In this document: in pieces, positions 28,538-60,473 of the stretch
Layout: every line of letters starts with the position of its first letter
Position numbering within the stretch: the first letter of the stretch is position 1
Origin: Zobellia alginiliquefaciens
Lineage (GTDB): Bacteria; Bacteroidota; Bacteroidia; Flavobacteriales; Flavobacteriaceae
NCBI RefSeq assembly: GCF_029323795.1
Contig: NZ_CP119758.1
Coordinates: forward strand, 4,898,001-4,962,000
DNA: 64,000 nt
Direction: 5' to 3'
The notes under the pieces: generated by a model
What the model saw: the letters and a program-made list of their open reading frames with translations, nothing else
The model's database searches: none
Told to the model about the DNA's origin: nothing
Made by a program: the position numbers and the translations under genes

Positions 28538-28560
28538 TTAAAATGTTCTTATTTGATGTT

Positions 28561-31110: not shown

Positions 31111-31119
31111 GTTCTTATT

Positions 31120-32511: not shown

Positions 32512-32557
32512 TTTCCTTAAATTTTTATTGGGATTTTTTCTTATCTCTTTGAACAAA

Positions 32558-33328: not shown

Positions 33329-33352
33329 TTCCTTATGCGTTATTTCTCTTTA

Positions 33353-34369: not shown

Positions 34370-34385
34370 TAACTATATTTCTCTA

Positions 34386-35609: not shown

Positions 35610-35655
35610 GATTATCAGTTACTTGATATAAATTTAAATATATGAATTTTCTCTA

Positions 35656-36345: not shown

Positions 36346-36353
36346 AAGGTGTT

Positions 36354-36397
36354 TTTTTGATTCAAATATGAAACTAGTTTCTTATTTGAATCAAAAA
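36354..36397. promoter_or_regulatory. 44-bp near-perfect palindrome overlapping the promoter of the AHG-operon regulator
   Basis: The two 22-base halves (36354-36375 and 36376-36397) are reverse complements with one mismatched pair (36369/36382). Outer arms are TTTTTGATTCAAATA, and the centre is GAAACTAGTTTC. On the minus strand a perfect -7 box TATTTTTG (36392-36399) overlaps the outer arm, so transcription should begin inside the palindrome, just before the regulator start codon at 36345. Related half-sites occur at about 36484-36495 (TTGAATCCAAAT) and 36590-36599 (TATTTGAATA). It is most likely an operator, probably for autoregulation. Confidence 0.65.
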
Positions 36398-36616
36398 TAT
36401 ATAAAAATTTGACATATCAGTATAATTTGGCCGTGTTTTTTTAAGATTTCTTTCACAAACCACACCAAAAACATCAAATTCTTGAATCCAAATATTTTAA
36501 CAAGGAAAAAACTACAAAAATAGTGCAATACAGCTATGTTATGTTGTACTAAATGATTTACATCTAATAACATAGAGATAAAAATTACGTATTTGAATAA
36601 GAAGGAAGAATGACTA

Positions 36617-40448: not shown

Positions 40449-40509
40449 TGCCCGTGGTTTAAATTATAATCGGTTATTCGTATAAATCCTTTAAAACGTA
40501 TTTTGTTCG

Positions 40510-41307: not shown

Positions 41308-41312
41308 GGATT

Positions 41313-42431: not shown

Positions 42432-42451
42432 CTATTGTGTTTTATATTTGA

Positions 42452-43708: not shown

Positions 43709-43714
43709 TATGTT

Positions 43715-44023
43715 TTATTTGGCGACTTTCAACACAACACCATCAATAGCATCGGTAATATCTATTTGGCAGCATAAACGGCTATATTCATCTGCATTAT
43801 CATCCAACTCTAGCATATCTGTCTCAATTTCACTTGCGCTTCCTGTTTTCTCCATATCTTCTGGAGCTACATGCACATGGCAAGTAGCGCAAGAGCAAAC
43901 TCCGCCACAATCGCCATCAATTCCCGGCACACCATTATCTACGGCCAATGCCATTACGGAACCCGAGGTTCCTTCTAAAGTTATTGTTTCTTCATCGTTG
44001 GTTATAAAAGTGATTTTTGCCAT
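43715..44023 (-). CDS. [2Fe-2S] ferredoxin, adrenodoxin/putidaredoxin type
   Basis: A 102-residue ferredoxin. The cluster cysteines have the expected spacing, C39-x5-C45-x2-C48, with the fourth at C85 (SRLCCQI). Acidic residues around 65-79 form the usual docking surface. An additional C43 and C84 lie beside cluster ligands. It carries electrons from the reductase to the P450 and lies between their genes with gaps of only 5 and 6 bp. Confidence 0.92.
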   Translation of the reverse strand: MAKITFITNDEETITLEGTSGSVMALAVDNGVPGIDGDCGGVCSCATCHVHVAPEDMEKTGSASEIETDMLELDDNADEYSRLCCQIDITDAIDGVVLKVAK

Positions 44024-44028
44024 GGATT

Positions 44029-45192
44029 CTATTTTATTAAAGGATTGAATTTCATATGTATACTGTGAAAGCCCACTTTACGTTTAAAGTGATGTAAATC
44101 TTCTATGTTTTCCTCGCAATCAAGTATTTCAAACGAGCTTACTTTTTCAGCCAAAGTCTGAAGTAATATTTTCATTATCTGTCTCGCATGGGTAGCCCCC
44201 AAACAATTGTGATGACTAAAGCCAAAACCTACATGCGGATTTATTTTACGGTCCATTACAATCTCATTTGGATTCTCAAACACTTTGGAATCCCTATTGG
44301 CAGACGCCCAACATAATGATACTCTAGTATCTGCTTTTGCCGCATGTTCGCAGACAAAAGTATCTTCCGTAACTACACGCCCCATTTGGGTAAGTGGAGA
44401 AAAATACCGAATCATCTCTTCTACGGTCTTTCCTGTAATTTCAGGTTCATTACGCAAGCGCTCCAAAGACTCGGGGTTTTCGGCCAAATACGCTATGGCA
44501 TTTGTAACCGCGTTTATTACGGTGTCTCTTCCCCCAGCAAAAGTCAGTACCATTACCCCTTTTACTTCCTCTTTAGTCAACTTTCTCCCTTCAAATTCGG
44601 AATCAAGAAGTATAGCGTACATATCACCTGTAGGATTCTTACTGGCGCGTTCTATTTCGGCATCTATATAATCATATAGAATATTGGCCTTATCTCCATC
44701 TAGCGCATCACCCTCACTTCTAAAGACGTGCGTTCCCCAAGAAATCCAGGTTTCGGATTCCGAAAAAGGTGTATTCAAAAGAAGCGTTAACGCCCTAGAT
44801 TGTAACTTAAGTGCCAAATCGGTCACTACTTCAACAGAATCTTCCTGAAGTACTTCGTCTATTATATTCGCTATCTGTGCCGCTAACTTCTCTTGATATT
44901 CTGCCTGCAATGGCCTTTTAAACCAAGGTTCAACCAAGGCCCTATACATACCATGGACCGGTGGATCCACTTCAAAAGGTATTTGACGTGTCTCCCGAAT
45001 ATTTACTTCAGAAGGTACAACAATACGTCCGGGAACAGCTCCTGATTGAAATGTTTTATAATTGTGTGCTGTTTTACGAACGTCCTTATGACGTAAAAGC
45101 ATGGTTACCGGATCATCTTGATCATCCATTTCACCGTAACCTTTTGACTCTCTAGCCTTTTCAAACGGATCTGGAAATTCACTTTTTTTCAT
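44029..45192 (-). CDS. Cytochrome P450, probable 6-O-methyl-D-galactose demethylase (CYP236A-like)
   Basis: A 387-residue soluble P450. Haem-ligand Cys330 lies in FGFSHHNCLGA, the I-helix oxygen-activating motif is AGGRDT (219-224), and the K-helix ExxR is E259-R262. I chose the start at 45192 because it gives a normal bacterial P450 N terminus; the longer frame adds 15 residues with no support. In Zobellia and Formosa, P450s with their own ferredoxin and reductase remove the methyl group of 6-O-methyl-D-galactose from porphyran, giving galactose and formaldehyde. The operon and the neighbouring agar genes match. Specificity is inferred from context. Confidence 0.88.
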   Translation of the reverse strand: MKKSEFPDPFEKARESKGYGEMDDQDDPVTMLLRHKDVRKTAHNYKTFQSGAVPGRIVVPSEVNIRETRQIPFEVDPPVHGMYRALVEPWFKRPLQAEYQEKLAAQIANIIDEVLQEDSVEVVTDLALKLQSRALTLLLNTPFSESETWISWGTHVFRSEGDALDGDKANILYDYIDAEIERASKNPTGDMYAILLDSEFEGRKLTKEEVKGVMVLTFAGGRDTVINAVTNAIAYLAENPESLERLRNEPEITGKTVEEMIRYFSPLTQMGRVVTEDTFVCEHAAKADTRVSLCWASANRDSKVFENPNEIVMDRKINPHVGFGFSHHNCLGATHARQIMKILLQTLAEKVSSFEILDCEENIEDLHHFKRKVGFHSIHMKFNPLIK

Positions 45193-45234
45193 ATAAGCGG
45201 CATAATTTAATAGGATAGTCTTTCTGTGGAAATA

Positions 45235-45264
45235 CAAAAGTCAATATTTAGGAATCACTATCAA
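45235..45264 (-). promoter_or_regulatory. Putative promoter of the P450 operon
   Basis: On the minus strand a TTG (45262-45264) is followed after 19 bases by GACTTTTG (45235-45242), a one-mismatch fit to the Bacteroidota TAnnTTTG -7 box. Transcription would begin near 45229, leaving a leader of about 37 bases before the chosen P450 start. Confidence 0.35.
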
Positions 45265-45375: not shown

Positions 45376-46215
45376 ATGAAACCTGTATTAGAGCCCATAC
45401 ACTTAGACAAACAGCGTACTATTACAAGTTTTTATCATTCTAAAAAAGATTTTGAGACACCTTGGCATTTTCATCCTCAGCATGAGCTCACCTATATAGA
45501 AGAAAGTGTAGGCACAAAATTCGTTGGTAATTATGTAGGTCCTTACCAACCAGGAGAATTGGTTTTGTTACGTTCAAATCTTCCACATTGTTGGAAAAAC
45601 AACACTAACCAAGAAGGGCTTTCAAAATCCATTGTAATTCAGTGGAATATTGGTGTTTTTAATAAAGTACCGGAATTAGATTCTTTATTTCATATGCTCA
45701 GAATGGCTTCTAAAGGCCTTATATTCAACAAAAAAGAAACAGCTCCTCTTTTATCACGTTTAAAAAAATGCCCGGAATTAGAGGGTCATGATCTATATAT
45801 TGAGTTACTCACTATATTGGTAAAATTATCTGGTTGTAGCTACAAAACACTATCCGGAGCCAGTTTTACAGAAGACCTACCTTCTGAATACGGGAGCCGA
45901 ATGGCTCAAATACACGAGTTTGTAGGATTGAACTACAATCGTAAAATTTACCTTAAAGAGATGGCAGATTTGGTCAGTATGTCCGAGCAATCCTTTTCTA
46001 GGTTTTTTACAAAAATGATGGGGCGTCCTTTCTTTACTTTCCTAAACGAATACCGTATTAATATTTCGGCAAGAATGCTACTGGACACTCACGATTCAGT
46101 TTCTCATATTGCATTTTCATGCGGTTATGAATCGCTTCCTTTCTTTCATAGACAATTTAAAAAATTCATGGGCAGCTCTCCTCTAGCCTATCAAAGAAAA
46201 TATGCAAAGGCCTAA
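45376..46215 (+). CDS. AraC-family regulator with cupin sensor domain
   Basis: A 279-residue AraC protein. The N-terminal cupin has the metal-like histidine pair in WHFHPQHEL (about 30-38) and a GxVLL-type strand (PGELVLLRSNLPHCW). The C-terminal double helix-turn-helix spans about 180-279 (MSEQSFSRFFTKMMGRPFFTF, CGYESLPFFHRQFKKFMG). It is transcribed away from the P450 operon across a 183-bp region and towards the GH29 gene, so it probably controls both. The signal is likely a sugar monomer such as a methylated galactose or L-galactose, but this is inference. Confidence 0.88.
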   Translation: MKPVLEPIHLDKQRTITSFYHSKKDFETPWHFHPQHELTYIEESVGTKFVGNYVGPYQPGELVLLRSNLPHCWKNNTNQEGLSKSIVIQWNIGVFNKVPELDSLFHMLRMASKGLIFNKKETAPLLSRLKKCPELEGHDLYIELLTILVKLSGCSYKTLSGASFTEDLPSEYGSRMAQIHEFVGLNYNRKIYLKEMADLVSMSEQSFSRFFTKMMGRPFFTFLNEYRINISARMLLDTHDSVSHIAFSCGYESLPFFHRQFKKFMGSSPLAYQRKYAKA

Positions 46216-46220
46216 AAAAG

Positions 46221-46333
46221 TGCATTTTAGCAACTCCTCAAAAACTGGACAAATAGAATAAATGACCATTTGTTGTAGTTATTTGAACAATTCGCACTTT
46301 CGGTTCTGTCATTAAATTGCAACTTAGCAACTC
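46221..46333. repeat. Two 16-bp near-direct repeats upstream of the GH29 gene
   Basis: TGCATTTTAGCAACTC at 46221-46236 and TGCAACTTAGCAACTC at 46318-46333 match at 14 of 16 positions, and the ten bases TTAGCAACTC are identical. The start-to-start distance is 97 bp. A related TTTTTAGCAA lies at 45271-45280 in the divergent P450/AraC region. They may be binding sites of the AraC-type regulator encoded just upstream. Confidence 0.4.
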
Positions 46334-46384
46334 GTTAAAAGCGCCAATCTTTGGCACCACTAACCAACCCTATAAATCATTTTA

Positions 46385-47923
46385 ATGAATAAAATTTTCA
46401 CACTTATATTGACCGGCGCAGTTCTTGCCTCTTGTGGGTCAAAAACGGAAAAGAAAGAAGAAACTTCCGCCAACGAAACTGTGGTTAAGTACGAACCGAA
46501 TTGGGAATCCATTGAAAAGAATTACAAAGACCCCGAATGGTTTAACGATAGTAAATTTGGTATTTTCATTCACTGGGGTGCGTATGCCGTCCCGGCTTAT
46601 GGTTCTGAATGGTATCCACGACAAATGTATATGGATACAGCTACTTTTAGTGCCCAGTTAAAACCAGGTCAAAAAGGACCTAACACAACGTATCTGCATC
46701 ATAAAAAAACGTATGGTGACCAAAAAGAATTCGGATACAAGGATTTCATACCTATGTTCAAGGCCGAAAAATTTGATGCCAAAGAATGGATAGATATCTT
46801 TAAGAAATCCGGTGCTAAATATGTAATTCCTGTGGCAGACCACCATGATGGTTTTGCTATGTACAATTCTAACACAACAAGATGGAACTCAGTAGACATG
46901 GGGCCTAAACGTGATGTTCTAGGTGAACTTTTTAAAGAGGGACGTGAGCAAGGTATGATTATGGGTGCTTCTTCCCACTACGCTTTCAACTGGTCTTTCT
47001 ATAATAAAAAGGACCATTTTGACACTACAAACCCTGAATATGCAGATTTATACTCCCCAAAAGGAAAAGACCTAACGGAGCCTGTTTCCGAAGAGTTTAA
47101 AAAAATGTGGTGGGATAGAACCGTTGATTTAATCGACAACTACCAACCGGATATTCTTTGGTTTGATTTTTATTTAGATATCCCTGATTACAAAGAATAC
47201 CGTCCTAAAATTGCCGCTTACTACTACAATAAAGGTTTGGAATGGGGTAAAGAAGTAGTAATAAACGATAAGAATTTTGATCACGAAGCTTTCCCGGAAG
47301 GCACTGTTATCTATGACCTTGAACGTGGTAAGCTTCCTGGAATCCGTAAACTGCCTTGGCAAACGGATACTTCCATCGGAAAAAATTCTTGGTGCTATGT
47401 TACCAACTGGGAATCTAGAACTGCTAATAGTTTGGTTGATGATTTGGTAGATATTGTATCTAAAAACGGAAACCTTTTACTAAATGTAGGTCCAAAAGCT
47501 GATGGCACCATTCCTGAAGACCAAAAAGAAATTTTGTTTCAAATTGGGGGTTGGCTGAATACCAATGGAGAAGCTATTTATGATACTGAATATTGGGATA
47601 CTTTTGGTGAAGGTCCAACAGAAGTTAAAAAAGGTCACCATAGTGAGGGTCAGAATAAAGGCTTTACCGGTCAGGATATTCGCTTTACCAAAAAAGGCGA
47701 TAAACTTTATGCCATTATGATGGAATGGCCAGAAGGTAACAAAGTGGATATTAAATCTTTAGGAAAAGCTAGTGAACACGGGAAAGACCTAAATATCAAA
47801 AGTGTAAAATTACTAGGAAGTGATGCTAAAATTACATTTGATGTAAAAGATGATGCACTTTCAATTTCTGACTTGGGCAACAAGTCTGGAGATTTTGCAC
47901 ATGTACTTGAAATATCGTTATAG
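46385..47923 (+). CDS. GH29 lipoprotein; alpha-L-fucosidase family, possibly exo-alpha-L-galactosidase
   Basis: A 512-residue lipoprotein (signal VLASC, Cys17) with a GH29 TIM barrel: WFNDSKFGIFIHWG (52-65), VADHHDGFAMY (150-160), nucleophile D261 in LWFDFY, and DLERG near 315. The C-terminal beta-sandwich is at about 415-512. GH29 enzymes remove alpha-L-fucose; a porphyran-associated GH29 from Bacteroides plebeius has been reported to act instead on alpha-L-galactose, which differs only by the 6-hydroxyl. Here the downstream operon fits L-galactose catabolism, so that activity is proposed. A strong terminator follows it, so it is a separate transcript. Confidence 0.88.
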   Translation: MNKIFTLILTGAVLASCGSKTEKKEETSANETVVKYEPNWESIEKNYKDPEWFNDSKFGIFIHWGAYAVPAYGSEWYPRQMYMDTATFSAQLKPGQKGPNTTYLHHKKTYGDQKEFGYKDFIPMFKAEKFDAKEWIDIFKKSGAKYVIPVADHHDGFAMYNSNTTRWNSVDMGPKRDVLGELFKEGREQGMIMGASSHYAFNWSFYNKKDHFDTTNPEYADLYSPKGKDLTEPVSEEFKKMWWDRTVDLIDNYQPDILWFDFYLDIPDYKEYRPKIAAYYYNKGLEWGKEVVINDKNFDHEAFPEGTVIYDLERGKLPGIRKLPWQTDTSIGKNSWCYVTNWESRTANSLVDDLVDIVSKNGNLLLNVGPKADGTIPEDQKEILFQIGGWLNTNGEAIYDTEYWDTFGEGPTEVKKGHHSEGQNKGFTGQDIRFTKKGDKLYAIMMEWPEGNKVDIKSLGKASEHGKDLNIKSVKLLGSDAKITFDVKDDALSISDLGNKSGDFAHVLEISL

Positions 47924-47966
47924 TGCTATAATAAAGAAGTTAGTTGAGTTAGTTTTTTTAAATTAG

Positions 47967-47994
47967 GAGCGCACCTTAAAAGTGCGCTCTTTTT
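47967..47994 (+). terminator. Strong Rho-independent terminator after GH29
   Basis: GAGCGCAC and GTGCGCTC form a perfect 8-bp stem with a 7-base loop, followed by five T residues. It lies 44 bp after the GH29 stop codon. Confidence 0.9.
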
Positions 47995-48004
47995 CAGTAC
48001 TACA

Positions 48005-48101
48005 GTAAACTACCTCGGGGCAAGCCCACGAGACATTAAAAGAAATACACTTTGATTTCGAGGCAAGCCTCGGAGCATTTAATCTCGATTACCGAGTAAA
48101 A
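48005..48101. repeat. 97-bp interspersed structured repeat, copy 2
   Basis: This is the second copy of the element at 1490-1586, in the same orientation, with 9 of 97 positions different. Here the internal stems are cleaner: CGAGGCAAGCCTCG and CTCGATTACCGAG. It sits between the GH29 terminator and the start of the LgoD-like operon, so it may lie within or next to that operon's promoter region. Confidence 0.8.
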
Positions 48102-48186
48102 TTAATAGGTGTAATTCCTAATTTCTGGATAGTATTAAAAAAGCAGCTCGTTTTAATATAAATGTGACCAAAAACAGATTAAACAC

Positions 48187-49203
48187 ATGAAATATATTGT
48201 ATGCGAAAAACCGGGAGAGTTCATCCTTAAAGAAAGAGAGGAACCAACAAGAAAATCCGGCGAAGCCATATTAAAAGTAAAAAAAGTAGGTATTTGTGGA
48301 ACGGATTTGCACGCTTACGCAGGTAACCAAGCTTTTTTTACCTACCCTAGAATTCTCGGTCACGAATTGGCTACCCAAGTGGTTGAAATAGACGAGAACC
48401 CTCAAGGTATTAAACCAGGAGACAATGTTGTAGTTATGCCGTACGTAAGCTGTGGTACTTGTATAGCCTGTAGAAATGGAAAAACCAACTGTTGTACGAA
48501 CATTAAAGTTTTAGGAGTTCATACAGACGGCGGAATGCAAGAAAAAATTACAGTTCCCACCAACTTACTTATCCCGGCGCAACAGTTAACGGATGATCAA
48601 ATGGCGGTCGTAGAACCTCTGGCCATTGGTGCACACGCTATTCGCCGTGCAGACTTAAAACCTGGTGAAACTATTGTTGTTGTAGGTTGTGGTCCTATCG
48701 GAATCGGTATTATGAAATTGGCCCAGATTGCAGGAGCAAAAGTAATAGCTATTGATATGAACCAACAGCGTTTGGATTATGCAAAGAATGATATTGGTGT
48801 GGACTATGTGGTTTTAGGTGGAAAAGATGCCGTAGAACAAGTTGAAAAAATCACCAATGGAGATTTAGCTACAGCTGTTTTTGATGCCACAGGTCACAAA
48901 GGAGCACTTGAAGCAGGTCCGGATTATATGTCACATGGTGGAAGATACGTATTGGTTGGTCTTTCCAAAGGAGAATTGGTATTTACACATCCAAAAATTC
49001 ACGCTAAGGAAACTACCGTTATGTGCAGTAGAAATGCTACTTTAGAAGATTTTGAACATGTGATTTCCGTTTTGGAAAAAGGCGAATTCCCTATTAATTC
49101 TTTTATAACACATAACGTGCCTTATACAGAAATGATCGCGAATTTTGATAGCTGGTTAGATCCAGCAAACGGAGTTATTAAGGCTACCGTAGATTTCGAG
49201 TAA
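48187..49203 (+). CDS. lgoD: LgoD-like zinc dehydrogenase, probable L-galactonate 5-dehydrogenase
   Basis: A 338-residue MDR enzyme with catalytic zinc ligands C37, H59 and E60 and the structural set C89, C92, C95 and C103. It resembles E. coli LgoD (YjjN) closely in segments I remember: VGICGTDLHAYAGNQAFF, YPRILGHE, and the C-terminal VGLSKGELVF with SRNATLEDF. LgoD oxidises L-galactonate at C5 to D-tagaturonate. The next two genes, UxaA and UxaB, are exactly the enzymes that use tagaturonate and altronate, which strongly supports this assignment. L-idonate or threonine dehydrogenase would be the alternatives. Confidence 0.82.
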   Translation: MKYIVCEKPGEFILKEREEPTRKSGEAILKVKKVGICGTDLHAYAGNQAFFTYPRILGHELATQVVEIDENPQGIKPGDNVVVMPYVSCGTCIACRNGKTNCCTNIKVLGVHTDGGMQEKITVPTNLLIPAQQLTDDQMAVVEPLAIGAHAIRRADLKPGETIVVVGCGPIGIGIMKLAQIAGAKVIAIDMNQQRLDYAKNDIGVDYVVLGGKDAVEQVEKITNGDLATAVFDATGHKGALEAGPDYMSHGGRYVLVGLSKGELVFTHPKIHAKETTVMCSRNATLEDFEHVISVLEKGEFPINSFITHNVPYTEMIANFDSWLDPANGVIKATVDFE

Positions 49204-49259
49204 GCCAAAGCTCATCATCTTTCATAGAATTTTAAGCACAGACAAAAGTAAAGAACACT

Positions 49260-50912
49260 ATGTCAAAGCAATTTTTGCAAATACATCCAGAAGACAATGT
49301 TCTGGCAGCCCTTACCAACATTTCCAAAGGTTCTGAGATTTCTCATAACAACGACCGTTTTCAGTTAACGGCAGACGTGAAAGCCAAGCATAAGTTTACA
49401 ATCACAAATCTTAATGTTGGCGATTCCATTATCATGTACGGTTCTCTAGTAGGAAAGGCTACAAAACCTATTGCCAAAGGAGAAACGATTACTACGGAAA
49501 ATGTGGTTCATGCTTCATCAGAATATGTGGTGGGCCAAGAAAAATTGAGTTGGACCGCTCCTGATGTCAGTAAATGGAAAGATGTTACTTTCAATGGATA
49601 CCACAGGGCAGACGGTAAAGTAGGTACGGCCAACCATTGGTTAGTGATTCCTTTGGTATTCTGTGAGAATAGAAACGTTGATGTAATGAAATCGGCATTA
49701 CTAAAATCGTTGGGCTACCATACCACCACTGATTTTGTAGTGGACACCGAGGTGCTTGTGAGCCAATATAAAAATGGAGCTTCTGAGAATGACCTTCTTT
49801 CTTCGGATATCATTAAAACTCCAGAAGACATAAAGCAAAATAGGACCTTTCCGAATGTAGACGGGATTAAGTTCTTGAACCATGACGGCGGTTGTGGGGG
49901 TATTCGCCAAGATTCGGAAACACTATGTAACCTTTTAGCGGGGTACATTACCCACCCCAATACGGCAGGTGCTACCATTCTAAGTTTAGGTTGTCAGAAT
50001 GCGCAATTCAAATTGTTGGAGGCGGCCATTGCTAAACTCGATCCCAGTTTTGAAAAACCACTGTATGTTCTGGAACAACAAAAAAGTTCTGGCGAACGTC
50101 AGTTTATAGAAGAAGCGGTTAAAAAAACATTTTTAGGTTTAATCGAAGCCAATAAAACAGAAAGAAAACCAGCACCGCTAACTAAACTCGTTTTAGGTTT
50201 GGAATGTGGTGGATCGGATGGCTTTTCAGGAATATCTGCAAACCCTTCTTTAGGTTATGCCTCTGATTTATTGGTTGGCTTAGGTGCTACAACCGTACTT
50301 TCGGAATTTCCGGAATTGAACGGTGTGGAACAAGAACTCATCAACCGTTGTGAAACGGAGGAAAATGCCGAAAAATTTGCGAAACTGATGCGTGCCTATT
50401 CGGATAAGGCCGTATCCGTGGGGTCTGGGTTTGAGAATAATCCATCCCCAGGAAACATAAAAGATGGACTCATTACAGACGCCATGAAGTCTGCTGGAGC
50501 AGCTAAAAAAGGGGGCACCAGCCCGGTAACGGATGTACTAGATTATACTGAACCGGTAAAGAAAAAAGGCCTGAATCTTTTGTGTACACCTGGTAATGAT
50601 GTAGAAAGCACCACAGGTCTTGCGGGATCCGGTTGTAACGTAATCTGTTTCACTACTGGCTTGGGAACGCCTACAGGAAACCCTATTGCTCCCGTCATAA
50701 AATTATCAAGTAATAATGCCCTTAGTACTCGTATGAAAGATATTATAGACTTTAATACGGGTACGGTCATTACCGGGGAAGATACTATCGAAACCAAAGG
50801 AGAAGAACTATTGGAATATATTATTAAAGTCGCCAGTGGTGAGGTGATTCCCGCAGCAGTACGCTTAGGGCAAGAAGACTTTATTCCTTGGAAAAGAGGT
50901 ATATCCCTTTAA
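49260..50912 (+). CDS. uxaA: Altronate dehydratase
   Basis: A 550-residue UxaA. The N-terminal SAF domain (about 1-95) precedes the catalytic part, which has ADGKVGTANHW (about 117-127), the Cys-containing GGCGGIR (about 217-223), GLECGGSDGFSG (about 314-325) and CTPGNDVEST near 440. The enzyme, iron-dependent in characterised members, converts D-altronate to KDG. It is 56 bp after the LgoD-like gene. No uronate isomerase (UxaC) is nearby, so galacturonate degradation is not the purpose of this UxaA. Confidence 0.92.
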   Translation: MSKQFLQIHPEDNVLAALTNISKGSEISHNNDRFQLTADVKAKHKFTITNLNVGDSIIMYGSLVGKATKPIAKGETITTENVVHASSEYVVGQEKLSWTAPDVSKWKDVTFNGYHRADGKVGTANHWLVIPLVFCENRNVDVMKSALLKSLGYHTTTDFVVDTEVLVSQYKNGASENDLLSSDIIKTPEDIKQNRTFPNVDGIKFLNHDGGCGGIRQDSETLCNLLAGYITHPNTAGATILSLGCQNAQFKLLEAAIAKLDPSFEKPLYVLEQQKSSGERQFIEEAVKKTFLGLIEANKTERKPAPLTKLVLGLECGGSDGFSGISANPSLGYASDLLVGLGATTVLSEFPELNGVEQELINRCETEENAEKFAKLMRAYSDKAVSVGSGFENNPSPGNIKDGLITDAMKSAGAAKKGGTSPVTDVLDYTEPVKKKGLNLLCTPGNDVESTTGLAGSGCNVICFTTGLGTPTGNPIAPVIKLSSNNALSTRMKDIIDFNTGTVITGEDTIETKGEELLEYIIKVASGEVIPAAVRLGQEDFIPWKRGISL

Positions 50913-50952
50913 TTATCTCAACTAAATTTTAACTTGACAAAACAACTATGTA

Positions 50953-52398
50953 ATGCAGATTTTAAATCATACTAACGCAACCAATAGAACGCAACGTCCT
51001 ATAAAGGTAATGCAGTTTGGAGGCGGTAATTTTTTACGCGCTTTTGTGGATTGGATGGTTCACGTACTCAACCAAGAAACCGATTTTAATGGAGATATCG
51101 CCATAATCAAACCCACTGCGGGAGGAGATTATGCGGAATTGAAAGCACAAGACGGACTTTTTACCGTTGTTCTTGACGGAATTAAAAATGGAGAACTGGT
51201 TGCCGAAAAAACTCTAGTTACCGAGGTTCAGCAGGTAATCCACTCCTATAACGAATGGGCCAAATATTTAAAGTTGGCCGAAAATGAAGATTTACGTTTT
51301 ATAGTTTCAAATACAACAGAAGCAGGAATCAAGTTTAATTCGGAAGATGAATTTAATGGAGTACCTCCAAAAGAATTCCCCGCTAAATTAACGATTTGGC
51401 TGTACCACCGTTTTAAACATTTCAATGCTGATATTTCTAAAGGATGCATTTTACTTCCCTGCGAATTGATCGAGGATAATGGCGATGCTCTCAAAAAAAC
51501 GGTTTTGCAATACGCCGATCATTGGAGTTTAGAGGCTGAATTTAAAGATTGGGTGGAGACTGCAAATCACTTTTGCAGCACCTTGGTAGACCGTATCGTT
51601 TCTGGTTACCCTTCTGATCGCGCTGAGGAAATTGAACAAGAACTGGGATACAAAGATGAACTATTGGTTGCTGGTGAATATTATCATAGTTGGGTTATTC
51701 AGGGCAACGAAACCGTGCAAAAGGAACTTCCCTTTTCCCAAACGGATTTGAATGTGGAGTTTGTAAATGACCTTGCTCCTTATCGTGAAATGAAAGTCCG
51801 TATTTTGAACGGTGCGCATACTTCTATGGTTCCTGTTGGTTATTTGGCCGGCATCCGCTTTGTAAAAGAAGCTATGGAAAATGAAGCTGTAAGCAACTTT
51901 GTAGAAAACCTTCTTTTAAAGGAATCCGCTACCACTCTCAATTTCCCCGATGATGTAAAAAACAAGTTTGTTGGCGATGTTCTTGATCGTTTTAGAAATC
52001 CTCTTTTGAAACATCAACTTTTAAGCATCTCTTTAAACAGTACTTCTAAATTTGTTGCACGCTTATTGCCTACGCTAAAAGACTATTACAATGCTCAAGG
52101 AAAGTTGCCAAAACGCATTGTTTTTGGACTTTCGGCATTGCTGCGGTTTTACAAAGGCGAGTTCAACGGTGAGCATATTGCTGTTAATGATGATAAGGCT
52201 GTTTTAAGTTTCTTTGAATCGCAGTGGGAGAAAGTAGACAATGGTTCAAGCTTACAGGATTTTACAAAAAATGTATTGAGTAACACTGCTATTTGGGGCG
52301 AAGATTTAACTCAAATAGAAGGTCTTTCGGAAACCGTAGCTAAGAATATCGAAAACATTGAAGCCAACGGAATCACTTCCTGTTTAAAAAACTTATAA
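50953..52398 (+). CDS. uxaB: Tagaturonate reductase (altronate oxidoreductase)
   Basis: A 481-residue mannitol-dehydrogenase-family protein. The nucleotide-binding motif is QFGGGNFLRAFVDWM (about 22-36), and the catalytic region has KVRILNGAHTSMVPVGYLAG (about 281-300), with a lysine as general base in this family. It reduces D-tagaturonate to D-altronate with NADH in the cytoplasm. In this operon it would take the product of the LgoD-like enzyme and pass altronate to UxaA. The gap to uxaA is 40 bp. Confidence 0.92.
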   Translation: MQILNHTNATNRTQRPIKVMQFGGGNFLRAFVDWMVHVLNQETDFNGDIAIIKPTAGGDYAELKAQDGLFTVVLDGIKNGELVAEKTLVTEVQQVIHSYNEWAKYLKLAENEDLRFIVSNTTEAGIKFNSEDEFNGVPPKEFPAKLTIWLYHRFKHFNADISKGCILLPCELIEDNGDALKKTVLQYADHWSLEAEFKDWVETANHFCSTLVDRIVSGYPSDRAEEIEQELGYKDELLVAGEYYHSWVIQGNETVQKELPFSQTDLNVEFVNDLAPYREMKVRILNGAHTSMVPVGYLAGIRFVKEAMENEAVSNFVENLLLKESATTLNFPDDVKNKFVGDVLDRFRNPLLKHQLLSISLNSTSKFVARLLPTLKDYYNAQGKLPKRIVFGLSALLRFYKGEFNGEHIAVNDDKAVLSFFESQWEKVDNGSSLQDFTKNVLSNTAIWGEDLTQIEGLSETVAKNIENIEANGITSCLKNL

Positions 52399-52426
52399 TC
52401 CATATTCAATCTTTAAAAATTGAAAA

Positions 52427-53254
52427 ATGACGATAGATAGTCACCAACATTTTTGGAAATACGAACCGGTAAAACATTCTTGGATCGATGATGACATGTC
52501 AGTTATCCGAAGAGATTTTCTTCCCCAAGATTTGAAGAAGGTCTATCAAGAAAATCAAGTTGATGGTTGTATTGCCGTGCAAGCAGACCAAACCCTAGAG
52601 GAAACCGATTTTTTATTGAATTTGGCAAAGGAGCACAATTTCATTAAAGGCGTTGTGGGCTGGGCCGATCTAAGAGCGGATAATATTGATTCTGTTCTAG
52701 AACAGTACAGTACGGATAAAAACTTGAAAGGTTGGCGTCATGTAGTACAAGGTGAGGCCGATCATAATTTCTTGTTGCGTCCTGATTTTTTACGAGGAAT
52801 ATCCAAACTTGAAAAATATGACCACGCTTATGATATTTTGGTTTTCCCGCATCAATTAGGCTCCGTTCTAGAATTTGTAAAAAAATTTCCTAATCAAAGA
52901 TTTGTCATAGACCATATAGCCAAACCCTACATTAAAGATGGTTTTTATGAAGGGTGGGCAGTTTTGATGAAAGAAATAGGCAAACAGGAAAACGTGTATT
53001 GCAAGCTCTCCGGTATGATTACCGAAGCGGATTACAATACATGGACAGCAGAGCAATTACAACCTTACATGCACCTGGTTCTAGAAGCTTTTGGCAGTGA
53101 ACGGATTATGTTCGGTTCTGATTGGCCCGTTTGTCTCGTAGCAGGCAATTACGGCCAGGTTAAAAGCATTGTAACCCATTTTATTGCAACGCTTAGTAGT
53201 CAAGACCAAGAGATGATCATGGGCGGAAACGCACAAGAATTCTATAATTTATAA
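52427..53254 (+). CDS. Amidohydrolase-family sugar lactonase (L-fuconolactonase-like)
   Basis: A 275-residue COG3618 amidohydrolase. The N-terminal metal-site motif is DSHQHFWKY (4-12), later residues are VIDHIAKP (about 160-167) and FGSDWPVC (about 226-233), all in the order of L-fucono- and L-rhamnono-lactonases. The reaction would be opening of an L-galactono- or L-fucono-lactone to the acid. It is followed by the L-fucose-dehydrogenase-like SDR that makes such a lactone, so the two consecutive steps sit together. L-galactonate as product fits the LgoD-like gene. Confidence 0.85.
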   Translation: MTIDSHQHFWKYEPVKHSWIDDDMSVIRRDFLPQDLKKVYQENQVDGCIAVQADQTLEETDFLLNLAKEHNFIKGVVGWADLRADNIDSVLEQYSTDKNLKGWRHVVQGEADHNFLLRPDFLRGISKLEKYDHAYDILVFPHQLGSVLEFVKKFPNQRFVIDHIAKPYIKDGFYEGWAVLMKEIGKQENVYCKLSGMITEADYNTWTAEQLQPYMHLVLEAFGSERIMFGSDWPVCLVAGNYGQVKSIVTHFIATLSSQDQEMIMGGNAQEFYNL

Positions 53255-53326
53255 ACGATTGTCTATCTCATTTGAGCACTAGTTGCTCTCCTAGAAAAAA
53301 GGACAACACCAAAATAACAGAACGCA

Positions 53327-54121
53327 ATGGATTTAAACTTAAAAGGAAAAGTAGTCGTTATTAGCGGCGCGGCAGGAAAAGAAGGCAGCATTGGAGAAAC
53401 TATTTTACAGCGTTTGGCGGAAGAAGGTGCAATACCTGCGGTCATTGATCGTAATGCCCGAGGTTTTGGGTATGTTGAGAAAATTCAAGAGAAAGGAATA
53501 GATGCTATTTTCTGTCAAACCGATGTAACCGACCCCGTTCAGATTGAAAATGCCGTAAATACAATTACCAAAAAATACGGTCGTATTGATGTGGTTATCA
53601 ATAACGTTGGTGTAAATGACGGAGTTGGTCTAGATGCCAGTTATGAAGAGTTTATGGATTCGCTTAAGCTGAACATGGTGAGCTATTTTCTTATTGTAAA
53701 GCATGCGCTTCCCTTTCTCATTAAATCAAAAGGCAACATTTTGAACATTGGTTCTAAAGTAGCTTTGACAGGGCAAGGAAGAACTTCTGGCTATGCTGCT
53801 TCCAAAGGAGGTGTTTTAGGCCTTACGCGTGAATGGGCTGTTGATCTAATAAAACATGACATCCGTTCCAATGCAATTATTATTGCAGAAAGCTGGACTC
53901 CATCATATGATACTTGGATCAGAACATTACCTGATGGAGAAGAAAAATTAAAATCCATTGTAAAGAAAATTCCTTTAGAAAATAGAATGACAAGTACCGA
54001 TGAAATAGCGGATACCTGTTTATTCACTATCTCAAACAGGTCATCGCACACTACCGGTCAATTTATTTTTGTGGACGGTGGCTATGTGCATTTAGACCGT
54101 TCGTTACTGACCGAAGATTAA
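53327..54121 (+). CDS. L-fucose-dehydrogenase-like SDR, probable L-galactose 1-dehydrogenase
   Basis: A 264-residue SDR with N-terminal LNLKGKVVVISGAAGKEGSIG, NNVGVNDGVGLDAS (about 90-103), the GQGRTSGYAASKGG segment with catalytic Tyr and Lys (about 149-162), and LTREWAV. This VNDG-GLDA and TREWAV pattern is that of bacterial L-fucose dehydrogenases, some of which also accept L-galactose and D-arabinose. It would oxidise the sugar at C1 to the lactone. In this operon L-galactose is preferred because the later enzymes need the 6-hydroxyl. Its SESWTP segment replaces the more common PAEVMTP, a possible sign of altered specificity. Confidence 0.8.
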   Translation: MDLNLKGKVVVISGAAGKEGSIGETILQRLAEEGAIPAVIDRNARGFGYVEKIQEKGIDAIFCQTDVTDPVQIENAVNTITKKYGRIDVVINNVGVNDGVGLDASYEEFMDSLKLNMVSYFLIVKHALPFLIKSKGNILNIGSKVALTGQGRTSGYAASKGGVLGLTREWAVDLIKHDIRSNAIIIAESWTPSYDTWIRTLPDGEEKLKSIVKKIPLENRMTSTDEIADTCLFTISNRSSHTTGQFIFVDGGYVHLDRSLLTED

Positions 54122-54146
54122 TCTCAACCAACTTAAATTCAAACCC

Positions 54147-55490
54147 ATGACAAAAAACACCAAAATACCTGTAGTACCTAAGCATTTGCTCGTTCCATTT
54201 ATTGCGGCGACGTCTATTTTTGCCCTTTGGGGGTTTGCCAACGATTTAACAAATCCAATGGTTGCTGCTTTCAAAAAAGTAATGATTCTTTCTAATGAAG
54301 AAGCATACAACGTGCAATTCGCATTCTATTTTGGTTATGGTGTTATGGCTATTCCTGCCGCTTTATTCATACGTAAATTCAGTTATAAATCAGGGTTATT
54401 ACTCGGTTTGGCGCTTTATGCTTTAGGTGCCATTCTCTTTTATCCTGCAGCCGAAAATGGTTCTTATACCTATTTCTTGATTTCGCTCTTTGTAATTACT
54501 TGCGGATTAGGATTCTTGGAAACCACCTCTAACCCCTTAATTCTTTCCATGGGGGATAAAGAAACGGCTACGCAAAGATTGAACTTGGCACAATCCTTTA
54601 ACCCTATTGGTTCGCTAACAGGTATGTTGATTGCCAAGTTTGTGGTATTAGATAGAATTCTATCTGCTGATTATGCAGATAGCTCTGAAATTCTAGCCCA
54701 AGGAGCTGAAAAAGCTGCTGAAATCAAAGCTTTTGACCTGAATATTATCAGTGGTCCGTACATTGCTGTTGGTATATTTGTCGCTTTGGTTTTTCTGGTA
54801 ATTTGGAGGACAAAAATTCCTGCAATGGTAATGGGTGACCATCTATCTATCAAAGAATCTATTGACCGTATTTTTAAAAGCAAGACCTTTCTCTTGGGTG
54901 TTGTTGCCCAAATGTTCTACGTAGGTGCCCAGATTATGTGCTGGACAGCTATTTTTCAGTTGGTAGAATATCTGAACGAATCCCAAAGTTTAGGAGTTGA
55001 TGCTACATGGTGGAATATTACCGCAATGGTGTCCTTTGTAACTACTAGATTTATTGGTACCGCATTGATGAAAAAAATAAACCCGGCAAAAATGTTGGCT
55101 TATTTTGGTATTGCAGCTGCTCTTATGTGTGGTGGAATTATCATGACCTCAGGTATCATCAGTCTCGTGTTCTTGGTACTGGTATCGGTTTTTATGTCGA
55201 TAATGTTCCCAACCATTTATGGCCTCGCTCTTAAAGATATGGGTGAAGAAGCAAAACTGGCTTCATCTGGACTTATTATGGCGATTGTAGGTGGTGCATT
55301 TTTACCGAAGTTGCAAGCAAGTATAATGGATTTTGGAGATACCGTAAACGGACAAGAAGTATTTGGTGATAAGATAGCTGGAAACATAACTGAAATTCAC
55401 TTTTCTTTCCTATTGCCTATGATTTGTCTTTTATTTGTTGCATTCTACGGTATGTACGCCTATAAAGTAACCAAATTGAAAACAGCTTAA
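54147..55490 (+). CDS. fucP: FucP-like sugar:proton symporter
   Basis: A 447-residue MFS permease with twelve membrane helices. The family features are FALWGFANDLTNPMVAAFKK (23-42; residues equivalent to FucP's Asp and Asn in helix 1 are present) and ETTSNPLILSMG (about 126-137). FucP moves L-fucose with protons in E. coli and can also carry L-galactose. It lies 25 bp after the SDR and 1 bp before the mutarotase. It should import L-galactose, and perhaps L-fucose, released in the periplasm by GH29. Confidence 0.9.
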   Translation: MTKNTKIPVVPKHLLVPFIAATSIFALWGFANDLTNPMVAAFKKVMILSNEEAYNVQFAFYFGYGVMAIPAALFIRKFSYKSGLLLGLALYALGAILFYPAAENGSYTYFLISLFVITCGLGFLETTSNPLILSMGDKETATQRLNLAQSFNPIGSLTGMLIAKFVVLDRILSADYADSSEILAQGAEKAAEIKAFDLNIISGPYIAVGIFVALVFLVIWRTKIPAMVMGDHLSIKESIDRIFKSKTFLLGVVAQMFYVGAQIMCWTAIFQLVEYLNESQSLGVDATWWNITAMVSFVTTRFIGTALMKKINPAKMLAYFGIAAALMCGGIIMTSGIISLVFLVLVSVFMSIMFPTIYGLALKDMGEEAKLASSGLIMAIVGGAFLPKLQASIMDFGDTVNGQEVFGDKIAGNITEIHFSFLLPMICLLFVAFYGMYAYKVTKLKTA

Positions 55491-55491
55491 C

Positions 55492-55833
55492 ATGAAAACG
55501 AAAAGATACTGCTATTCCTGTGATCTTAAAGATGACCCAAAACTCATTGCAGAATACAAAGAATATCATGCTCCTGGTAACGCCCGTCCCGCAATAACAA
55601 AAAGTATTAAAGATGCGGGTATTGTAGACATGCAGATTTTCCTAACCGGAAACCGCATGTTTATGATTATGGAAGTCGATGAAACTTTTGATGCCAAGAG
55701 AAAGGCTGAAATGGATGCCAATAACCCTGCCGTACAGGAGTGGGAACAATTAATGTGGAAATACCAACAAGGCTTGCCTTGGGCCAAAAATGGTGAAAAA
55801 TGGATTGAATTAGAGCGTATTTTCAAACTCTAA
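55492..55833 (+). CDS. L-rhamnose/L-fucose mutarotase-family protein
   Basis: A 113-residue member of the RhaM (DUF718) family: CYSCDLKDDPKLIAEYKEYH near the N terminus with the catalytic His, DMQIFLTGNRMFMIMEVD in the middle, and MWKYQQGLPWAKNGEKW near the end, all expected for this fold. It interconverts anomers of a 6-deoxy- or L-hexose. It is the last gene of the operon and follows the permease at once, so it probably supplies the proper anomer of imported L-galactose to the dehydrogenase. Confidence 0.85.
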   Translation: MKTKRYCYSCDLKDDPKLIAEYKEYHAPGNARPAITKSIKDAGIVDMQIFLTGNRMFMIMEVDETFDAKRKAEMDANNPAVQEWEQLMWKYQQGLPWAKNGEKWIELERIFKL

Positions 55834-55853
55834 TAACCCTTCTACAAAATTAA

Positions 55854-55900
55854 CAGAGCGTAGTTAAACCGAGTATTCGGTTTAACTACGCTCTGTTTTT
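55854..55900 (+). terminator. Strong Rho-independent terminator of the L-galactose operon
   Basis: A perfect 19-bp stem, CAGAGCGTAGTTAAACCGA with its complement, a 4-base loop and a run of five T residues. It comes 20 bp after the mutarotase stop and separates it from the convergent sulfatase. Its opposite strand has a weaker T-rich tail, so it may also help end the sulfatase transcript. Confidence 0.95.
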
Positions 55901-55918: not shown

Positions 55919-57598
55919 TTAATCGTTCCAGTGAGCGTCTATAACTTTTTGAATGTGGGGATATTTTTCATCAGTTTCGTTTAAGTCCTCTCTCAACCTC
56001 AATAATTCTTTTTTCAATTCGGCTATGGTTTCTGCATACGCAGGGTCGTCATAGGCATTGTTCATTTCCTTAGGGTCTTTTTTCAGGTCATAGAATTCCC
56101 ATGCAGCAGGTGTATCCGTAGAAAAATCGTTACCCCAATTCTGTTTGTCCCATTCTGCATTTGGGTCGCTGGTATCCACATAATATTTTCCGTAGAAAAA
56201 TATTAACTTATGATCCTTGGTACGAACGCCAAAATGTGCGGGGTTTTGGTGACGGTGTGCCATATGCATCCAATACCTGTAGTATGTAGACTTTTGCCAA
56301 TCTTCAGGCTCCTCCCCCGTTTCTAGGATAGTTTTAAAACTATTACCTTGCATATAATCCGGAGCGCTGCCACCGGCCATTTCTATTAAAGTTGGTGCAA
56401 AGTCCGTGTTGTTGATAATTGCATCCGTGCGAGTTCCTCCTTTAATTTTCTCTGGGTAACGCACAAAGAAAGGCATACGCATAGATTCATCGTACATCCA
56501 TCTTTTATCAATAAAATCATGCTCGCCCAACATAAAACCTTGATCACCGGTGTAAACGATTATAGTGTTATCCAAAAGCCCTTCAGCCTCTAAATAATCC
56601 ATTAAACGCTTTACATTATCATCAACTCCTTTTACGCAACGCAAATACTTTTTTACGTAGTCCTGATAAACCTTACTCGTGTATTTTTTCTCTTCATCAT
56701 CCATTTCCCATTTTACATATTCTTCTGGACGGATTTTATCCGCATCACGATACGAACGGTGAATAGAGCTATCTACATAAATGTTCATGGCCTGATTACG
56801 AATCAAGTTTCTGTGCGATACAGAAGATCCAATAATTCTAGTCAACGAATCGTTCTTACCACGTGTAGCAATAGAACCGTTATTTCCTCTTTCGTACAGG
56901 CTTTCAGGTTCTGGAATAAAGGTATCCGCCAAATACTCTTCATAACGAGGTGCATTTTCAAAATCATCATGCGGTGCCTTAAACTGGTGCACTAAAAAGA
57001 AAGGTTTGTTTGGATCTCTTTCATTCTTTAACCAATTTAAAGATATATCAGTAACCATATCGGAAGAATGCCCTTTGGTCTGAACCGTATTTTGCGGCCA
57101 AGGCTTGTCTCCTCTAACTCTAAAATCCGGGTCGAAATATTTGCCCTGTCCTGGTAATACCTTGTAATAATCAAATGCCGCAGGTTCTTCCTTTAAGTGC
57201 CATTTACCCACAACCGCGGTTTGGTACCCTAGTTTTTTTATCTCTATAGGAAGAAATTGGCGTGCCGGTTCTATACGACCATCTAAATCCAGAACTCCAT
57301 TTAATTGCGAATTTTGTCCTGTAATAATGGCTGCACGACTAGGCGTACATATAGAATTACTAACAAAACAATTTTCGAATATGATACCCTCTTTGGCAAT
57401 CTTATCTAGGGTGGGTGTAGGATTTAATTTGGCCAATCGACTACCATAAATCCCAAAACCCTGGGTAGTATGGTCATCAGCCATAATGTAGATGATATTC
57501 GGTTTTTTTTCTGTGATTACAGCCTTCTCTTCTTTACAAGAAGAAAATACAATAAGCAACAAAAGAGCATACAGTAGATTGTTCTTTTTGCAGCGCAT
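55919..57598 (-). CDS. S1-family sulfatase, lipoprotein
   Basis: A 559-residue lipoprotein sulfatase (signal VFSSC, Cys21). It has the metal motif IMADDHTTQGFG (about 41-52), the formylglycine motif CTPSRAA near residue 81, GKWHLK near 133 and YTGDQGFMLGEHD near 353. The GDQG form of the latter and an insert with acidic residues (about 265-320) mark it as a subfamily different from the other two sulfatases here. It is convergent with the L-galactose operon. Sulfated L-galactose or another algal sugar is likely. Confidence 0.9.
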   Translation of the reverse strand: MRCKKNNLLYALLLLIVFSSCKEEKAVITEKKPNIIYIMADDHTTQGFGIYGSRLAKLNPTPTLDKIAKEGIIFENCFVSNSICTPSRAAIITGQNSQLNGVLDLDGRIEPARQFLPIEIKKLGYQTAVVGKWHLKEEPAAFDYYKVLPGQGKYFDPDFRVRGDKPWPQNTVQTKGHSSDMVTDISLNWLKNERDPNKPFFLVHQFKAPHDDFENAPRYEEYLADTFIPEPESLYERGNNGSIATRGKNDSLTRIIGSSVSHRNLIRNQAMNIYVDSSIHRSYRDADKIRPEEYVKWEMDDEEKKYTSKVYQDYVKKYLRCVKGVDDNVKRLMDYLEAEGLLDNTIIVYTGDQGFMLGEHDFIDKRWMYDESMRMPFFVRYPEKIKGGTRTDAIINNTDFAPTLIEMAGGSAPDYMQGNSFKTILETGEEPEDWQKSTYYRYWMHMAHRHQNPAHFGVRTKDHKLIFFYGKYYVDTSDPNAEWDKQNWGNDFSTDTPAAWEFYDLKKDPKEMNNAYDDPAYAETIAELKKELLRLREDLNETDEKYPHIQKVIDAHWND

Positions 57599-57762: not shown

Positions 57763-58866
57763 CTATACCCGTTCTAATTTAACCGGAGGCGTTCTGTTGG
57801 CGTTCCATTGACATACGTAAAGGTTCTTGTCCTCATCTACAAAAACATCGTGTCCATGATTAAAAACCGCTTTTTCCGATTGATACATTTGTTGCAGTTT
57901 GCCATTTTTATATTCAGGTGCATTGCCTCCAGGATTGGAAACTACCTTGTTTTCACCATCCATAATGGTTACAAAACCAGAATTGCTAAACCTATGCCCT
58001 TGCTTATTTTCGGACCAACATACGCCAGCGTAGATATTTTCATCATCAAGAACGGGACGGCAGACATACGCTCCCGGTAACTCAACTGTTTTAATGAATT
58101 TTCCATCTAAAGTGAAAAACTTAAAACTCTTATCAGAACGAGAAGTAACCACAAGCACTGGATTTTGCTTGTCCCTATAATCTACGGCAACACCGTGAGC
58201 GTTATGAAGATTATAATTTTTATCGCTGTTATCATGACCACCCCATTTGCGGATGAATTCACCTTTACCACTAAACTGAAGAATAAAGTCAGAGCCGTAA
58301 CCATCCGCTACGTAAATATCCCCATTGGGCCCTACAGCGGTCTCCGTTGGCAAATATTCTTGTTCTTCGGTATACACACCAATAGTATGTGGATCGGGCA
58401 AGTTGAATAAAAGACGGCCATCAACAGTAGTTTTACTTACAGTTCCTGCCTGTTTACTCCATTTCCCGGTTCGGTCAACAAACCACCCACAATCCACAAT
58501 GTACAACATGTCCTCACCCCCTTCATCATGGAGTGTAAGCCCGTGTCCGCCAGGGTAACGTGTTCCCCAATAATCCAGAAGCTTTCCCGATTTATCGAAA
58601 ATCAAAATATTATTATCCGTGTGGTCTCCTAACATGATAAGCCTTCCCTTACTGTCCATTTGCATTTCATGACAGTTCAGTATCGGGTTGTGAGCAACAG
58701 ACATTTGTGCCCAATCCTTAACTACTTTGTACTTATAATCACCGTGACCTATGATTTGATCTTCCAATGCGGTTTTCTTTAAGATATTAAATCCAAAAGA
58801 TGTTGTGGTAGTTAAAGCGGTGGCGCCCAATGCCGATTTCTTAAGAAAGCTTCTTCTATTGCTCAT
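57763..58866 (-). CDS. Tat-exported six-bladed beta-propeller (NHL-like) protein
   Basis: A 367-residue protein with a twin-arginine signal (NRRSFLKK, 3-10) and NHL-type propeller repeats (for example GPNGDIYVADGYGSDFILQFSGKG at about 177-200, and VDEDKNLYVCQWNAN near the end). Proteins like this resemble peptidylglycine lyase propellers, but I do not see a proven active site. It belongs to a minus-strand group with DUF1501 and PSD1 genes, an arrangement common in Planctomycetes. Its role may be binding or cleaving a sugar derivative in the periplasm. Confidence 0.75.
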   Translation of the reverse strand: MSNRRSFLKKSALGATALTTTTSFGFNILKKTALEDQIIGHGDYKYKVVKDWAQMSVAHNPILNCHEMQMDSKGRLIMLGDHTDNNILIFDKSGKLLDYWGTRYPGGHGLTLHDEGGEDMLYIVDCGWFVDRTGKWSKQAGTVSKTTVDGRLLFNLPDPHTIGVYTEEQEYLPTETAVGPNGDIYVADGYGSDFILQFSGKGEFIRKWGGHDNSDKNYNLHNAHGVAVDYRDKQNPVLVVTSRSDKSFKFFTLDGKFIKTVELPGAYVCRPVLDDENIYAGVCWSENKQGHRFSNSGFVTIMDGENKVVSNPGGNAPEYKNGKLQQMYQSEKAVFNHGHDVFVDEDKNLYVCQWNANRTPPVKLERV

Positions 58867-58929
58867 ATAATACTAGTGGTTTTATTGTGGTGGTAATTTA
58901 CTATGAAAGTTAACTAAAAGCAGGTAAAT

Positions 58930-60447: not shown

Positions 60448-60473
60448 ACAATCTTTTTTTTAGCTGTTAACTA

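Follow-up and report, generated by a model that had tools for sequence, protein, structure and literature searches.

A probable L-galactose catabolic operon serving porphyran breakdown in Zobellia alginiliquefaciens

Which genes would allow a marine member of the Bacteroidota to consume the L-galactose that is released from porphyran, a polysaccharide whose alternating units include L-galactose-6-sulfate (PMC10033563)? The question is raised by seven adjacent plus-strand open reading frames (ORFs) at positions 48187-55833 of a 64-kb stretch (hereafter the window; contig NZ_CP119758.1, positions 4,898,001 to 4,962,000) of the 5.07 Mb one-contig genome of Zobellia alginiliquefaciens. A sequence-only reading had assigned these genes to seven named families; all seven are intact, the families were confirmed with Pfam and NCBIfam models, and the gene order recurs in all eight congeners compared. 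Judging from homology and from the neighbouring genes, we consider it very probable that the set forms an operon for the catabolism of L-galactose derived from porphyran. The chain proposed by the same reading, which leads from L-galactose through its lactone, L-galactonate, D-tagaturonate and D-altronate to 2-keto-3-deoxygluconate (KDG) and includes the link to porphyran, is supported by flanking genes for a glycoside hydrolase of family GH29 and a sulfatase, by the occurrence in relatives of an aldo-keto reductase (AKR) in the slot of the short-chain dehydrogenase/reductase (SDR), and by a separate L-fucose operon in the same genome.

The seven genes and their immediate flanks

The first gene (48187-49203, +) encodes a putative LgoD-like, zinc-dependent L-galactonate 5-dehydrogenase with the Pfam domains ADH_N and ADH_zinc_N, an activity predicted from 40.9% identity to E. 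coli K-12 LgoD over 337 aligned residues, in which the cysteines of the C-x2-C-x2-C-x7-C pattern align. It is followed by a gene for a UxaA-like D-altronate dehydratase (49260-50912, +), which carries galactarate/altronate dehydratase domains (PF20629, PF04295 and SAF), is 34.8% identical to E. coli K-12 UxaA and represents the single UxaA match in the genome. The product of the third gene, the putative D-tagaturonate reductase UxaB (50953-52398, +), scores 670.6 bits against NF002969 (cut-off 359) and is 44.2% identical to E. coli K-12 UxaB, two further homologues in the genome being 27% identical. The next gene (52427-53254, +) encodes a putative L-galactono/L-fucono-1,5-lactonase of the amidohydrolase family (PF04909, Amidohydro_2), whose best NCBIfam model is L-fucono-1,5-lactonase NF052480 (277 bits, under the cut-off of 400) and whose sole PDB match at 1e-5 is 4dlf (194 bits). 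This lactonase has no second match in the genome; it shares 95% identity with the Zobellia uliginosa C3R17 enzyme and falls within the Zobellia proteins in the lactonase tree. The SDR (53327-54121, +), a sugar 1-dehydrogenase with a YAASK motif that is proposed to act as L-galactose dehydrogenase, exceeds the cut-off of the L-fucose dehydrogenase model NF052481 (353 bits, cut-off 300) and matches PDB 4gkb with 257 bits. Although the PDB names of 4gkb and 4dlf are generic, we take them to be the Burkholderia L-fucose dehydrogenase and L-fucono-1,5-lactonase, respectively. The set is completed by a FucP-like MFS sugar:H+ symporter (54147-55490, +; TIGR00885 fucP, 460 bits, cut-off 280) and a RhaM-family aldose mutarotase (55492-55833, +; PF05336, 1.8e-29). 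The latter protein contains the residues NARPAI, as do its counterparts in the three other Zobellia compared; all three non-Zobellia relatives have NAWPEI there.

The intergenic gaps are, in gene order, 56, 40, 28, 72, 25 and 1 nt. A 20-bp inverted repeat that is terminator-like on either strand (55852-55897) lies between the operon and the convergent sulfatase gene, and a terminator-like hairpin (47967-47994, +), with a perfect 8-bp stem followed by TTTTT, was read in the sequence 3' of the GH29 gene, although the terminator scan did not list it. These two elements suggest that the seven genes are probably one transcript and the GH29 gene another. A promoter scan returned 30 sites, fewer than the 34.0 found in shuffled sequences, and was not used.

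The link to porphyran is supported by the two flanking genes. The upstream gene (46385-47923, +; PF01120) encodes a GH29 protein that is a putative lipoprotein by its N-terminus and a probable exo-alpha-L-galactosidase: its two highest-scoring PDB matches carry the names alpha-L-fucosidase (7snk, 442 bits) and 'Exo-alpha-L-galactosidase' (7ljj, 438 bits), and the next fucosidase, 4ni3, reaches 292 bits. The window protein keeps an Asp at the site that reads Asn in chain 7lnp, a residue which is presumably the nucleophile. Downstream, on the opposite strand (55919-57598, -), lies the gene for an S1_11-like sulfatase (PF00884) with CTPSR as its C-x-P-x-R motif, which is probably an exo-L-galactose-6-sulfatase, given 635 bits to 7lha ('Exo-L-galactose-6-sulfatase'), 605 and 602 bits to 7snj and 7sno ('Arylsulfatase') and 367 bits to the GlcNAc-6-sulfatase 5g2v. 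Because both neighbours match exo-alpha-L-galactosidase or exo-L-galactose-6-sulfatase entries far above all differently named solved relatives apart from near-identical entries of the same set, the assignment of the operon to L-galactose is better supported.

Predicted activities, locations and regulation would combine as follows. Outside the cytoplasm, the sulfatase would strip the 6-sulfate from terminal L-galactose of porphyran and the GH29 enzyme would release the desulfated sugar, which FucP would import, with RhaM accelerating the exchange of anomers. The SDR would then oxidize C1 of L-galactose to yield L-galactono-1,5-lactone, the lactonase would open the lactone to L-galactonate, and LgoD would oxidize C5 to give D-tagaturonate, which UxaB would reduce to D-altronate and UxaA would dehydrate further to KDG. 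The route would be completed by KDG kinase and 2-keto-3-deoxy-6-phosphogluconate (KDPG) aldolase, whose genes lie at other places in the genome: the seven-gene operon contains no KDPG aldolase, the nearest one found lying outside the window at C1:4984328 (79% identical to the aldolase of locus L098), and a kinase 50% identical to that of L098 is found at C1:944056.

Conservation among relatives and the SDR-or-AKR slot

Thirteen stretches from relatives (L155-L167) were compared, eight from congeners (L155-L162), five of whose records coincide with the Zobellia loci L041-L045, and five from others. The order from GH29 to RhaM, which comprises the GH29 gene and the seven genes, is kept in 8/8 congeners, and the set is therefore more than chance. 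The sulfatase gene is in view in seven of the eight, and for the eighth (L161) the longer stretch L042 shows it. Among the other five, L163, L164 and L165 contain LgoD, UxaA, UxaB, lactonase and SDR, L166 has GH29, LgoD, UxaB, SDR and sulfatase with no match to UxaA or the lactonase, and L167 combines a lactonase with L-fucose-type SDR, FucP and RhaM and has no match to LgoD, UxaA or UxaB.

A broader comparison covered 80 loci, which are the best 80 of 87 confirmed from 101 candidates obtained with one lactonase query and not a random sample; gene presence was scored by tblastn of the window genes within the fetched stretch. LgoD, UxaA and UxaB occur together in 47 of these loci, 37 of which have an SDR, seven an AKR and three neither, and none has both. 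The same holds across all 80 loci (SDR 59, AKR 8, neither 13, both 0). In L098 the AKR occupies the SDR slot between lactonase and FucP, and its best PDB match is an L-galactose dehydrogenase (83 bits), a name shared by four of the six matches. The simplest reading is that SDR and AKR would both perform the same first step. The AKR label changes six times on the lactonase tree, and five of these changes are forced by starred branches, although the bootstrap is unsettled and two long branches meet. A search of 395 genomes of the phylum with the L098 AKR gave a single hit at the threshold of E <= 1e-50, in L135, with 37% identity. KDG-kinase-like genes are present in 12 and KDPG-aldolase-like genes in 14 of the 80 operon runs, which fits KDG as the end product, and an L-fuconate dehydratase homologue occurs in none (0/80).

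With thresholds that were chosen after the table had been seen, and with Fisher tests that ignore relatedness among non-independent loci, a close GH29 (>=60% identity) is found in 19/47 loci with LgoD, UxaA and UxaB versus 1/33 others (1.3e-4), or in 14/42 versus 1/33 when the five Zobellia loci are removed (1.0e-3), and a close sulfatase (>=55%) in 12/47 versus 1/33 (0.011). A second GH29 type, 39-43% identical to the window GH29 and possibly another alpha-L-galactosidase, lies between uxaB and the lactonase gene in 11/80 loci (L051, L056, L066, L067, L070, L077, L087, L088, L090, L103 and L120).

Several observations weigh against the assignment to L-galactose. Neither the UxaA nor the LgoD-like protein reaches the cut-off of its highest-scoring NCBIfam model, and the NCBIfam names of the SDR, lactonase and FucP indicate L-fucose, the SDR and lactonase being closest by model to L-fucose enzymes. 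The AKR scores only slightly higher against L-galactose dehydrogenase (83 bits) than against IolS (79 bits), and six AKR-family matches elsewhere in the genome make another first enzyme possible, although none of the six resembles the operon-type AKR at 1e-50. A close GH29 is missing from the fetched stretch of 28/47 loci with LgoD, UxaA and UxaB, and the sulfatase association drops to 7/42 versus 1/33 (Fisher 0.07) without the five Zobellia loci. In five loci (L058, L063, L071, L115 and L117), LgoD is accompanied by homologues of the second SDR and the hydrolase that the L-fucose operon of this genome encodes. Tagaturonate reductase and altronate dehydratase have been assigned to galacturonate use in Flammeovirga, according to PMC5385347, and PMC11036162 describes induction of a tagaturonate reductase by arabinogalactan in Maribacter. 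As a separate observation on the five hybrid operons, they also have lactonase, SDR and RhaM and give no UxaB match.

L-fucose, galacturonate and L-glucose as alternative substrates

The sequence-only reading had also stated that fucose-pathway markers and the uronate isomerase UxaC are absent. This holds within the window, where FucI, FucK and FucA are absent from the families found in the scanned ORFs (the rest of the genome was not searched for them), and where L-fuconate dehydratase, 2-keto-3-deoxy-L-fuconate dehydrogenase and the diketo hydrolase were not found at 45376-55833. Genome-wide it fails for L-fuconate dehydratase and for UxaC, whose one genome match (C1:2083263-2084648) lies more than 2 Mb from the operon. 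Homologues of the three L-fucose enzymes are encoded near C1:3652100 (locus L121), in a separate operon that is apparently of the non-phosphorylating L-fucose type. Its enolase-superfamily protein matches the generically named 4ip4 at 631 bits, 4a35 ('mitochondrial enolase superfamily member 1') at 602 and the L-fuconate dehydratase 1yey at 594, and 2hxt is also among the PDB relatives. The operon further encodes an L-fucose-dehydrogenase-type SDR (409 bits, cut-off 300), a FucP (523 bits, cut-off 280), to which the window proteins are 55% and 51.5% identical, respectively, an FMN-dependent dehydrogenase, and a second SDR with a FAH-type hydrolase. The best NCBIfam models of the last two are generic SDRs and, under cut-off, 2,4-didehydro-3-deoxy-L-rhamnonate hydrolase, and their L-fucose roles are assigned from position.

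The lysine of the YxxxK motif was compared in the SDRs of L121, L147-L154, L025-L028, L119 and L167. In 9/9 Zobellia genomes this lysine is replaced by Asn in the L-fucose-operon SDR (L121:9123-9911; C1:3655122-3655901), and six more distant relatives have Asn (five) or Cys (one) at the site. Lys is kept in the window SDR, in PDB 4gkb and in the LgoD-linked SDRs of L058, L072 and L115.

The alternative that survives best, although we regard it as doubtful, overlaps with the assignment to L-galactose: the SDR, lactonase, FucP and RhaM would form an upper pathway for both L-fucose and L-galactose, with L-fuconate being handled by the distant operon that contains the dehydratase, and L-galactonate by LgoD, UxaB and UxaA. 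The window SDR lies above the cut-off of the L-fucose dehydrogenase model, its counterpart in the L-fucose operon carries the Asn described above, and the sole lactonase match of the genome sits in the window operon and may therefore also serve L-fucose. Moreover, the five hybrid loci, together with joint L-fucose/L-galactonate loci in Halomonas (PMC5507952), suggest that LgoD-bearing operons, including that of the window, may handle both sugars. On the other hand, the L-fucose operon possesses its own SDR and FucP, and on both sides of the window operon lie genes similar to those of L-galactose-releasing enzymes. A related and equally tentative idea is that in marine Flavobacteriaceae the first L-galactose step was swapped repeatedly between the unrelated SDR and AKR folds with the other operon genes remaining in place, and that in Zobellia the window SDR and the sole lactonase also supply L-fucose oxidation, the latter being suggested because the dedicated SDR of the L-fucose operon is without the catalytic lysine.

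Far less probable is a D-galacturonate operon, in which UxaB and UxaA would act on tagaturonate supplied by UxaC and the remaining genes would be incidental. UxaC is encoded in the genome, adjoined by ORFs that by eye resemble a tripartite ATP-independent periplasmic (TRAP) transporter, and the one UxaA match is the window gene; galacturonate use may therefore share UxaB and UxaA. As an explanation of the operon this was rejected, since UxaC lies outside it, at the distance given above, and LgoD, lactonase, SDR and FucP have no role in that route, yet stay with UxaA and UxaB across genera.

An operon for L-fucose only, to which the model names of SDR, lactonase and FucP and the five hybrid loci could point, is highly improbable and was likewise rejected, because L-fuconate dehydratase is missing from all 80 operon runs, a separate L-fucose operon exists elsewhere in the genome, and the known reactions of UxaB and UxaA have no place in L-fuconate breakdown. 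A dual L-glucose/L-galactose pathway like that of Luteolibacter, whose downstream enzymes are the same (PMC12632266), is scarcely credible and was set aside because the operon genes, to which the search was confined, include no C-4 epimerase; the first enzyme here is, in addition, an SDR.

Known systems and the red-algal sugar neighbourhood

In Bacteroides (Phocaeicola) vulgatus, we take BVU_0219, as a member of the GALDH_ARATH-type group, to be an AKR, and BVU_0220 to be a lactonase that presumably belongs to the amidohydrolase family, which is also the family of the window lactonase. The conversion of L-galactose to D-tagaturonate in this species is credited to Hobbs et al. 2014 by PMC12632266, so that the same phylum has L-galactose and L-galactonate dehydrogenases (BVU_0219 and BVU_0222) leading to D-tagaturonate. 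However, the first enzyme groups with plant GALDH_ARATH in PMC12632266, whereas the window operon has an SDR, contains UxaB, UxaA, FucP and RhaM and is flanked by probable porphyran-trimming genes. The whole route from L-galactose through L-galactonate, D-tagaturonate, D-altronate and KDG to KDPG is described for lguABCDEF of Luteolibacter LG18 (PMC12632266), and the gene disruptions reported there show the same chemistry, which favours the assignment to L-galactose. Luteolibacter belongs to another phylum, its LguA groups with GALDH_ARATH and BVU_0219, and its cluster includes a KDPG aldolase, whereas the window operon has an SDR and an amidohydrolase lactonase; the main text of PMC12632266 never uses the word 'lactonase'. 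According to the same source, which is concerned with close orthologues, no organism was found with the other six lgu orthologues minus lguG.

Homologues of E. coli LgoD, UxaB and UxaA are all present in the window operon, whereas in E. coli the three genes lie at three places in the genome and the route begins at L-galactonate. The nearest solved relatives of the window SDR and lactonase, which we take to be Burkholderia enzymes, feed an L-fuconate dehydratase, while those of the window would feed LgoD, UxaB and UxaA. In Halomonas and Chromohalobacter, lgoD, uxaA and uxaB lie beside L-fucose genes, with TRAP import of acids, and PMC5507952, in the text available, mentions no link to red-algal galactans. 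The nearest solved relatives of both flanking genes appear to be BpS1_11 and BpGH29 of the Bacteroides plebeius porphyran utilization locus, 7snj corresponding to BpS1_11 if we infer correctly from PMC12316285, where the two enzymes and a GH2 were applied sequentially to porphyran oligosaccharides; the available text of that source is silent on genes for L-galactose catabolism, with 0 occurrences of 'dehydrogenase'.

The sequence-only reading knew of no description of this route in marine Bacteroidota. The L-galactose route itself is not new, since it has been shown whole in Luteolibacter, and its first half is credited to B. vulgatus and thus known in Bacteroidota too. In the open-licence literature no account was found of the route in marine Bacteroidota or tied to porphyran, nor of how these bacteria use L-galactose once it has been released. 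As far as this literature was searched, the new elements are the SDR-type first enzyme, the coupling to probable L-galactose-releasing genes and the wide spread among marine Flavobacteriaceae with repeated SDR/AKR exchange.

Further genes of the window fit a red-algal setting. An AraC-family protein (45376-46215, +; HTH_18, Cupin_2) encoded 5' of the GH29 gene, as also in the Zobellia loci L041-L045, is by its position a candidate regulator of the locus. The genes at 39564-45237 (-) encode, by their Pfam domains, a PhyH protein, an esterase, a zinc-dependent alcohol dehydrogenase (Zn-ADH), a ferredoxin reductase and a P450, the kinds named for 6-O-methyl-D-galactose demethylation in Zobellia and Formosa (PMC10033563). 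A probable 3,6-anhydro-L-galactose cluster, whose steps were assigned from Pfam domains by analogy, occupies 26402-37408 (-) and comprises genes for a transporter, an epimerase, an MR_MLE cycloisomerase, an Aldedh protein, a sulfatase, an SDR, a Zn-ADH, a GH43-like hydrolase that may be a GH117, and AraC and IclR proteins; it fits both the description of ZGAL_4657-4669 (PMC5613140) and the pathway given in PMC5943477. The genes at 57763-63722 (-) encode a DUF1501 protein, a DUF1549/DUF1553/planctomycete-cytochrome-C protein and one protein that matches no Pfam family at 1e-8; they may correspond to ZGAL_4688-4690, an agar-induced unit whose tie to agar is termed unclear in PMC5613140.

Three red-algal sugar routes, for anhydro-L-galactose, methyl-galactose and L-galactose, would thus stand side by side, and gene-deletion tools are available for Z. 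galactanivorans (PMC10033563). LgoD, UxaB, UxaA and the lactonase, together with an SDR or AKR, may serve as a signature for finding users of L-galactose, and the comparison suggests that the annotations 'L-fucose dehydrogenase' and 'L-fuconolactonase' in such operons mislead. The locus offers a complete, testable answer to the fate of released L-galactose in marine Bacteroidota.

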